From positions 1 to 39,839 of the forward strand of contig DAIDMU010000117.1 of NCBI GenBank assembly GCA_027448805.1: a stretch of 39,839 nucleotides of DNA, in the 5' to 3' direction. Numbering within the stretch: position 1 is the stretch's first letter; each line of letters begins with the position of its first letter. The notes under the pieces were generated by a model that was not told the DNA's origin, made no database searches, and worked only from the letters and a program-made list of their open reading frames with translations. The stretch comes from Sulfurimonas sp. GTDB lineage: Bacteria; Campylobacterota; Campylobacteria; Campylobacterales; Sulfurimonadaceae. Shown piece after piece: positions 4,957 to 7,291 of the stretch. A program made the translations under genes and the position numbers.

Positions 4957-5637
4957 ATGTTAATTTATGCAAAACAACCAATCAATTATATTATTAAAAA
5001 CCATCCGAATAAAATCAAGATTTTGTATCTTGCAAAAGAGATGGATAAAAAAGAGTACTCAAAACTTATGAAGATGGGTTTTGAGATAAAAAGAATTCCC
5101 TCAGACGCAGCGGGGATAATGTGCAAAAATGCTTCTCATCAAGGTATTTTGGCAGAAGTTGACGAGTATCAGCTGCAAGATTATAAAACATTTTTAAATT
5201 ATGAGTTTGTACTTGTTTTATCAGGCTTGACTGATGTCGGAAATATCGGCGCAATCATTAGAAGTGCTTATGCGCTCGGGGTTGATGGGGTAATTGCATG
5301 CGGAGTGAAGTCACTGCCGCTTGAAGCGATTACTAGAACAAGTACTGGTGCGCTCTTTGATATGCCTTTTAGCATTGAGACAAATGTTCACGACGTTATG
5401 AACGACCTTAAAATGTCTGGGTTTACAACTTATGGCGCGGATATGGGCGGTAAAGATATAAGAGATGTAAAAGTTGCCAAGAAGAGAGCGCTGTTTTTAG
5501 GGAGCGAAGGAGAGGGGCTGAGTGCTAGAGTTAGTTCTAAGCTCGATGAAGTTGTAAGTATAAAAATGTCACATGAGTTTGACTCTTTAAATGTCGGTGT
5601 GGCAGGAGCTATTTTAATGGATAGGATGAGAATATGA
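4957..5637 (+). CDS. RlmB/TrmH-family (SpoU) RNA 2'-O-ribose methyltransferase
   Basis: SPOUT methyltransferase of the SpoU class, most like RlmB (Gm2251 of 23S rRNA). The target is inferred from family only. It has a short N-terminal substrate-binding region (residues 1-75) and the three SpoU motifs: NIGAIIRSAYALGVDGV near 97, LGSEGEGLS near 179 and SLNVGVAGAILMDRMRI at the C-terminus. 226 aa. The ATG at 4957 gives MLIYAKQPINYII, a normal N-terminus for this family, but has no ribosome site and sits right after a -10 box. The stop overlaps the next gene by 4 bp (ATGA). In C. jejuni the orthologue (Cj0153c, from memory) has the same neighbours. Confidence 0.88.
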   Translation: MLIYAKQPINYIIKNHPNKIKILYLAKEMDKKEYSKLMKMGFEIKRIPSDAAGIMCKNASHQGILAEVDEYQLQDYKTFLNYEFVLVLSGLTDVGNIGAIIRSAYALGVDGVIACGVKSLPLEAITRTSTGALFDMPFSIETNVHDVMNDLKMSGFTTYGADMGGKDIRDVKVAKKRALFLGSEGEGLSARVSSKLDEVVSIKMSHEFDSLNVGVAGAILMDRMRI

Positions 5638-6467
5638 GTAATGGTTTTGAAAAATTAAAAAGTATCGGTGTTCAAAAGATTCATGAGGCTACGCATATTG
5701 CGAGATCTCATATTCAAGCAATGCTGCAAGAAAATTTTGAAGATATGAACAGTGTTCAGCTGGCAGGTTTTATATCTATTCTTGAGAGAGAGTACTCTGT
5801 TGATTTAAGTGAGTTGAAAAATAAAGCCAAAGAATATTTTAAAAACAATTCACACTCTATTAAGAAGATAAAAGCGACACATGTTTTTCTTGCGCATAAG
5901 AGAAAGAAGAAGTTGACGCTGACTTATATAATTGGCGGGGTGGCACTGCTTGCATTATTTGCAATTTTTATCATTACTCCATCGGATGATGAAATTCCTG
6001 CTGTTGACAATACGGTTATAGAGAGTGCGCAGAGTAACATATCGGCAGTTGAAATAGAGCAAAATAGTACAGCCGCTGATGAAAACAGCACCTCTGCCGA
6101 TGAAAATGCTACTTTTGCTGATAAAAACAGCACTGTAAACAAAGAAGAGAAAATAGAGGTGCCAAGCCCTAAAGCGGTTATTGCAACACCATCTTTTAAA
6201 ATTATGCCAAATTCCAAGGTGTGGCTGGGTTATATTGATTTAGCTACCGGCAAGAGAGATCAAAAGACATTTTCGGATGAACTTTTGTTGGACCCTGCAA
6301 AAGAGTGGCTCCTCTTTATTGGACATGGGCAGATGAGAGTAGAGATAAACGGTGTGATTACAAGCTTTGACAATAAAAACAGTATGAGATTTTTATATAA
6401 AAATTCAGAGCTAAAAGAGATAGATTCTAAAGAGTTTAAAAATTTAAATAGTGGTAAATCATGGTAA
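5634..6467 (+). CDS. Single-pass inner-membrane protein with glycosylation-sequon linker (Cj0152c-like)
   Basis: 277 aa. The layout is a cytoplasmic N-terminal domain (residues 1-92) that looks helical and resembles the small helical domain often found in RodZ-like proteins, a basic stop-transfer (HKRKKK), one transmembrane helix at about 95-115, then a periplasmic part. The periplasmic part starts with a low-complexity linker (about 116-175) carrying NST/NAT units every seven residues. It ends in a compact domain (about 185-265) rich in hydrophobic strands (WLGYIDLATGKRDQKTF). By order it matches C. jejuni Cj0152c. No catalytic motif is visible. It overlaps the upstream methyltransferase by 4 bp and the next secreted-protein gene by 7 bp, so it is co-translated and probably works with that protein at the envelope. 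Confidence 0.75.
   Translation: MSNGFEKLKSIGVQKIHEATHIARSHIQAMLQENFEDMNSVQLAGFISILEREYSVDLSELKNKAKEYFKNNSHSIKKIKATHVFLAHKRKKKLTLTYIIGGVALLALFAIFIITPSDDEIPAVDNTVIESAQSNISAVEIEQNSTAADENSTSADENATFADKNSTVNKEEKIEVPSPKAVIATPSFKIMPNSKVWLGYIDLATGKRDQKTFSDELLLDPAKEWLLFIGHGQMRVEINGVITSFDNKNSMRFLYKNSELKEIDSKEFKNLNSGKSW
6063..6134 (+). repeat. Tandem 21-bp (7-residue) repeat encoding four N-glycosylation sequons
   Basis: 3.4 copies of a unit encoding N-[S/A]-T-x-A-D-[E/K]. Residues N144, N151, N158 and N165 lie in EQNST, DENST, DENAT and DKNST, each of which meets the bacterial PglB rule D/E-x-N-x-S/T with no proline at either x. The codons differ between copies, so it is not a recent slippage product. 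Confidence 0.9.
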
Positions 6468-7291
6468 AAATATTTTTACTCTTTACTCTTCTTGTCTCTT
6501 TTTCTTGTGCAGAAGATTTACTGATTAAAAAAATTCAAAACCTTATCAACCCAGCAACATTTGTAAAAGACAGAGCATACATAGATACTATTTTTTCTCA
6601 AAAAAAAGATTTTTATTTAGATGACGGGAGGGTTGATACCATTAAGGTTATTAAAACCCTTAAAGATAACGGCATTTTAAATCTCTTTTTTAAAAAACCG
6701 CGTGACATAAACATAAGTTTTAAAACTCAGGGCGCACCTCTATTTTTTATAAAAATTATGGGCGACTCTTTGCAAAATATCGGTTATTACAAATATGTAA
6801 CAAAAGAGTCCAAATTTAACGATATAGAGTTTGTATGGAAAATAAATTTAACTTCAGAGTACGCTGCAGACCCGATAATACTCAGCCAAGAACTTAAAAA
6901 AAATAACTGCAGAGTTGTTGATGTTATAAGAGATGGCGAAACTGACTGGACCTATGTTGTTGATATGAAAAATGCCAAACTAGATGTTAGTGAGCTTGAA
7001 GACGGGGTTGAATTTAAACTAAAGAGATCACTCTACGCACACTGGCTTGATGTTTCAAATATAGACAAGATAGAAATATCAAGCTCAGCCAGAAATGATT
7101 GGTATCCACATATCGCATATTATGACAAATCTCTAAAATTACTAAAAGTTATGAAGATAGATGCAAAAAAGACAAACATAACTCTTGATATAAGAGAAGA
7201 TACGCGTTATATAAAAATTTCAGACATATATACTTTAAAAAATATTAAAGACGATTTGGTTTTAAAGCCAACAGCCAAAAAAATAAACTAA
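6461..7291 (+). CDS. Conserved secreted (periplasmic) protein, Cj0151c-like
   Basis: 276 aa with a clear signal peptide: basic MVK, hydrophobic stretch IFLLFTLLVSFSC, then AED. The cysteine at residue 16 is followed by A-E, but the preceding residues (V-S-F-S) are a poor lipobox, so cleavage by signal peptidase I is more likely than lipidation. The rest is soluble and strand-rich, with no motif I recognise. Its start overlaps the preceding membrane-protein gene by 7 bp; I recall the same pair in C. jejuni (Cj0152c/Cj0151c), which suggests the two products act together in the periplasm. Function unknown. Confidence 0.72.
   Translation: MVKIFLLFTLLVSFSCAEDLLIKKIQNLINPATFVKDRAYIDTIFSQKKDFYLDDGRVDTIKVIKTLKDNGILNLFFKKPRDINISFKTQGAPLFFIKIMGDSLQNIGYYKYVTKESKFNDIEFVWKINLTSEYAADPIILSQELKKNNCRVVDVIRDGETDWTYVVDMKNAKLDVSELEDGVEFKLKRSLYAHWLDVSNIDKIEISSSARNDWYPHIAYYDKSLKLLKVMKIDAKKTNITLDIREDTRYIKISDIYTLKNIKDDLVLKPTAKKIN

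Follow-up and report, generated by a model that had tools for sequence, protein, structure and literature searches.

A RodZ-like membrane protein of Campylobacterota with a predicted array of PglB sites in its periplasmic linker

The purpose of bacterial N-glycosylation is largely unexplained. A stretch of 39,839 nucleotides from Sulfurimonas sp. (contig DAIDMU010000117.1; the whole stretch is called the window here) contains a gene for a membrane protein with four sequons in a single linker. This locus raises two questions: whether the sequons are a genuine substrate array for the oligosaccharyltransferase PglB, and what kind of protein carries them.

Layout of the protein and origin of its sequon array

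The four sequons of the original prediction are all present in the translated ORF (Table 1). Each of them conforms to D/E-x-N-x-S/T without proline, and their asparagine codons span positions 6063-6128. Pfam and NCBIfam searches with the protein gave no domain above the cut-off. The AlphaFold model, computed with 48 orthologues, places a helical domain at residues 3-81, the membrane helix at 94-114 and, from residue 188 onwards, a beta domain to which DSSP assigns eight strands, with pLDDT above 90 for most of it. The single transmembrane helix and the low-complexity linker, as originally proposed, were thereby recovered, the linker being disordered in the model. The helix is preceded by KRKKK and followed by SDDE, which predicts an N-in/C-out orientation; with basic residues before the helix and acidic ones after it, the linker is predicted to be periplasmic, in line with the topology that had been claimed. 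The array sites are predicted to lie on this side of the membrane in a flexible segment.

Table 1. Features of the RodZ-like gene and its partner in the window
Feature	Position	Strand	Basis
RodZ-like single-pass membrane protein, 277 aa	5634..6467	+	ORF (ATG at 5634, stop at 6465-6467), conserved gene order; Cj0152c is the syntenic counterpart
Cytoplasmic helical domain, residues 1-80, HTH_25/RodZ-like	5634..5873	+	Structural match, HTH_25 matches, profile-profile comparison
Transmembrane helix, residues 94-114, positive side in	5913..5975	+	AlphaFold/DSSP and charge
Disordered periplasmic linker (predicted), residues 115-184	5976..6185	+	Low pLDDT across most of the linker
Four 21-bp units with sequons EQNST/DENST/DENAT/DKNST (N144, N151, N158, N165)	6057..6140	+	
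C-terminal beta domain, residues 185-277	6186..6464	+	Resembles RodZ_C in profile comparison only
Partner gene, 276-aa protein with N-terminal signal-peptide-like stretch, Cj0151c position	6461..7291	+	

When the 70-residue linker was shuffled 20,000 times, four sequons were never obtained and three were obtained 30 times; a chance origin of the four-sequon array is thus excluded. Among the 39 ORFs of at least 150 residues in the window the protein also has the most sequons, the runners-up having two each.

Underneath the array TRF found a tandem repeat of 21 bp (72% matches), the four units of which have 11 to 14 of their 21 bases in common. The number of units is four in the window protein, three in its nearest relative (L002, 86% identical) and two in the next (L006, 77%). 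Unit 1 of L002 matches unit 1 of the window in 18 of 21 bases and its unit 3 matches window unit 4 in 19, whereas unit 2 of L006 matches window unit 4 in 18. The outer units therefore correspond one-to-one, and inner units have been gained or lost in frame. The repeat and the copy numbers among the nearest relatives indicate that the array was built by unit duplication. From the spacing and the differing codons the original prediction had argued against slippage; this argument is not supported, since gain and loss of the 21-bp unit are visible among close relatives. Selection held the sequon while the codons drifted, so that the codon differences reflect age and constraint and not independent origin.

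The exact spacing of seven residues, which had been taken as a selected feature, is real in the window protein. Across the family, seven is the most frequent spacing and yet far from universal (35 of 256 neighbour spacings), and hence the selected-feature part of the claim is not supported. In the relatives the sequons are kept while their number and spacing vary, as the comparison of orthologues proposed originally was meant to reveal. What is kept appears to be the presence of several glycans rather than their exact positions.

The heptad spacing could also be read as a coiled coil or another structured stalk in which the asparagines are incidental. Apart from the spacing in the window protein this is hardly credible: pLDDT is below 50 over residues 137-164, so that a coiled coil is not predicted despite the spacing, the sequence has no hydrophobic a/d positions, and orthologues do not keep the period. 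An array denser than that of the window was seen in the linker of L051:276-1202 (genome G045), where overlapping sequons follow every three residues (EFNESNETNETNETN, DTNDSNESNNT), giving nine full sequons in about 93 residues.

PglB and the sequon content of orthologous linkers

The original prediction stood or fell with a PglB homologue in the same genome. One STT3/PglB gene with the WWDYG motif was found there (G000:C26; STT3 E 1.4e-30), cut at the contig end and followed downstream by galU, pgi and a gene for a PglF-like UDP-sugar 4,6-dehydratase. We take this arrangement (L035) to be unlike that of the C. jejuni pgl locus. Within 397 Campylobacterota genomes, PF02516 is present in 277 and an orthologue of the window protein in 359. 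The absence of PglB was rechecked with a family profile of ten sequences, which matched none of 14 PglB-less genomes and all ten controls (E 1e-90 or better); the truncated PglB of the genome itself, used as a query without a positive control, had no match in the PglB-less set either. Two genomes (G263 and G304) have PglB, and no orthologue of the window protein was found in them. In family f9 (e.g. G044, G081, G253) most members are without a detectable orthologue and many also without PglB.

For the comparison of linkers their limits were set with models of the N- and C-terminal domains and the most hydrophobic segment, since an earlier delimitation by a W-x-G motif had dropped many PglB-less sequences. 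In 86 orthologues from genomes with confirmed PglB, 290 sequons were counted in the linkers, where shuffling gives an expectation of 27.9. The corresponding numbers for 70 orthologues without detectable PglB are 31 and 14.3, or 20 and 13.2 when genomes G337 and G144 are left out. An acidic residue at position -2 is found in 74% of all N-x-S/T in the PglB-bearing set and in 33% in the PglB-less set. The mirror motif [ST]xNx[DE] occurs only 30 times in the PglB-bearing linkers, and the cytoplasmic parts of the same proteins have two sequons in 8,227 residues. Fewer than two sequons are present in 14 of the 86 PglB-bearing orthologues.

These numbers bear on a simpler interpretation, namely that duplication of the 21-bp unit produced a neutral, polar, low-complexity linker rich in D, E, N, S and T, with the sequons as by-products. 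The period found by TRF and the turnover of units between close relatives agree with it. It is nevertheless largely refuted by the composition-preserving control, and we consider it very improbable: shuffles of the same composition reach one tenth of the observed sequon number, the mirror motif is rarer by a factor of ten, sequon positions are kept despite differing codons, and PglB-less lineages retain the linker yet are near background.

The relation to PglB was also seen within families. In f11 there are 80 sequons in 19 PglB-bearing orthologues and none in four PglB-less ones (three from a genus of their own and one from a genus most of whose members have PglB). In f9 there are six sequons in two PglB-bearing orthologues and none in one PglB-less orthologue, and in f14 21 in nine PglB-bearing against 13 in 62 PglB-less orthologues (11.7 expected); the Helicobacter-type PglB-less lineages are thus at background. 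Mean linker length is similar with and without PglB (about 92 and 86 residues, respectively). In the single-contig genome G290 the linker is without a sequon, yet the gene order around the gene is intact. Exceptions to the relation with PglB are three draft genomes without PglB by the family profile, G337, G144 and G421 (L055, L143 and L137), the linkers of which have three, eight and seven sequons. They could be explained by an assembly gap, a very recent loss of PglB or another enzyme. A further genome without detected PglB (G336) has two sequons.

Orthologous sequences are not independent, and few independent events underlie the co-loss. A tree built from the two domains implies about ten changes in PglB; among eight supported independent pairs, sequon richness followed PglB in about 3.2, ran opposite to it in 0.5 and showed no difference in 4.3, and a sign test was not significant. 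Hence the evidence for sequon enrichment in PglB-bearing genomes is strong, and that for a loss of the sequons together with PglB is suggestive. Where the linker is retained and its sequons are lost, the lineage is PglB-less in all but a few cases, which supports the idea of a PglB substrate. On the three points where the original prediction could have failed it therefore held: pglB is present, the linker is predicted to be periplasmic, and the sequon-losing lineages mostly have no PglB. In several PglB-less genomes of genus g33 (L077, L078, L079, L082, L083) the profile match to the protein crosses one TGA, perhaps reflecting a shortened C-terminal end.

Similarity to RodZ

The predicted order of parts in the protein, a putative HTH domain, one transmembrane helix, a low-complexity linker and a C-terminal beta domain, is that of RodZ (E. 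coli RodZ/YfgA, S. aureus YmfM, T. maritima RodZ). This likeness appears to extend to the structure of the cytoplasmic domain and to the profiles of both ends, and MreB is present in the genome (E 5.8e-142). HTH_25 matches 57 of 148 orthologues with E of 0.1 or less (lowest 8.6e-9), the match of the window protein itself being below the cut-off (E 0.039). With Foldseek alone no match reached E 0.001, and PDB sequence searches with the family gave nothing with the first query and only matches of the low-complexity linker with the second. When the Foldseek candidates for the cytoplasmic domain were aligned with VIA-align, rank 1 was 2wus_S, Thermotoga RodZ in complex with MreB (Z 7.7, 73 residues, 2.8 A; a Z below 8 is by itself insufficient for a RodZ assignment), and rank 3 was S. 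aureus YmfM/RodZ (3fym).

In hhalign with E. coli RodZ alone the two proteins were in register through the HTH domain and the transmembrane helix, with P 0.065. For this reason a RodZ profile was built from eight gammaproteobacterial sequences. In profile-profile comparison the N-terminal domain matched it with P 3.4e-4, and none of 100 column shuffles scored as high. Independently, the C-terminal domain matched over 61 columns with P 5.4e-4 (hhalign score 22.6; best of 100 shuffles 21.1).

In contrast to RodZ, the C-terminal domain is too divergent for the RodZ_C model, and the linker has PglB sites. PF13464 (RodZ_C) did not match the protein, was not among the families listed for its 148 orthologues, and was found in none of 121 Campylobacterota genomes, whereas E. 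coli and others match. Plain HMM searches separated RodZ poorly from decoys. Because of these weak searches and the missing PF13464 match we speak of a RodZ-like protein and refrain from classing it as RodZ. Taken together, sequence profiles and the structural match make it look like a divergent RodZ that was previously unrecognised, an identity that is new here and was no part of the original prediction. A 2012 paper states that RodZ is absent from helical epsilon-proteobacteria (PMC3310789).

Alternatively, the array could be real and its carrier no relative of RodZ but another membrane protein with an XRE-type HTH, e.g. a membrane-bound regulator. HTH folds are common, unrelated matches can also reach a Z of 7.7, and RodZ_C escapes Pfam, all of which speaks for this view. 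We still hold it to be unlikely, as two of the three top structural ranks are RodZ proteins and the two end domains match RodZ in separate alignments and in the same order, with scores that no column shuffle reached. In addition, the C. jejuni counterpart and its neighbour, Cj0152c and Cj0151c, are both on a list of essential genes (PMC10077673).

Proposed role and gene neighbourhood

Our preferred interpretation, with a probability of roughly 70%, is that the product of the gene is a RodZ-like scaffold of the elongasome in Campylobacterota and that PglB uses its disordered periplasmic linker as a substrate array. It builds on the computed sequons and their enrichment, PglB in the genome, the predicted topology and disorder, and the RodZ similarity of both ends. 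MreB would be bound by the HTH-type domain in the cytoplasm, one helix would span the membrane, and the linker would lead to the C-terminal beta domain, located close to the synthases of the cell wall. After membrane insertion the linker would be glycosylated at several asparagines, and the glycans could have a mechanical or protective role, helping the linker to stay extended and soluble and shielding it from proteases. Extended in this way, it may tether the MreB side to the C-terminal domain at the wall synthases. In C. jejuni PglB mutants are viable (PMC6478998), and with Cj0152c reported essential in this species this suggests that the glycans tune the function of the protein and do not enable it.

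Glycopeptides with the acidic-type sequon have been proven in other proteins of Campylobacter and Helicobacter pullorum (PMC9816155, PMC6025236). The protein resembles these PglB-dependent N-glycoproteins in its acidic-type sequon, its flexible periplasmic segment and the presence of PglB in the genome. It differs from them in that several sites lie in one linker, the array is conserved across the phylum with a drifting number of sites, and the carrier is RodZ-like; in the papers searched no modification of this protein is described.

For the phylum as a whole, we find it rather probable that Campylobacterota possess an unrecognised RodZ, the linker of which is a selected multi-site N-glycan array in PglB-bearing lineages and is lost as such with PglB, and that N-glycosylation and the elongation machinery are thereby directly linked. 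The retention of sequons with PglB suggests a sugar coat on the machinery that builds the cell wall in these bacteria. If so, the conserved glycan array on RodZ would be a concrete and ancient client for bacterial N-glycosylation, and a cryptic RodZ with an essential neighbour would supply a missing piece in the account of how the curved and helical bacteria of this phylum acquire their shape.

The neighbourhood of the gene, with RNA methyltransferases and an aminotransferase, differs from that of RodZ (rlmN/pilW/ispG). Its order, rsmE, rsmI, SpoU methylase, the RodZ-like gene, partner, aminotransferase and hom, is conserved and includes a Campylobacter-family genome, the counterpart of which is about 23% identical. 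We take this order to be that of C. jejuni Cj0149c-Cj0154c, where the RodZ-like gene has the position of Cj0152c, as in the original prediction. Cj0152c is presumably among the reported N-glycoproteins of C. jejuni; the literature searched that names Cj0152c does not state its N-glycosylation. Besides gene order, the likeness to the Cj0152c-Cj0151c pair consists in a membrane protein beside a periplasmic one and in the reported essentiality of the pair (PMC10077673).

The partner adjoins the RodZ-like gene in 74 of 88 loci tested. Its protein gave weak partial matches only to PdxJ models and contains one sequon, DINIS. In the window the two genes overlap by seven bases.
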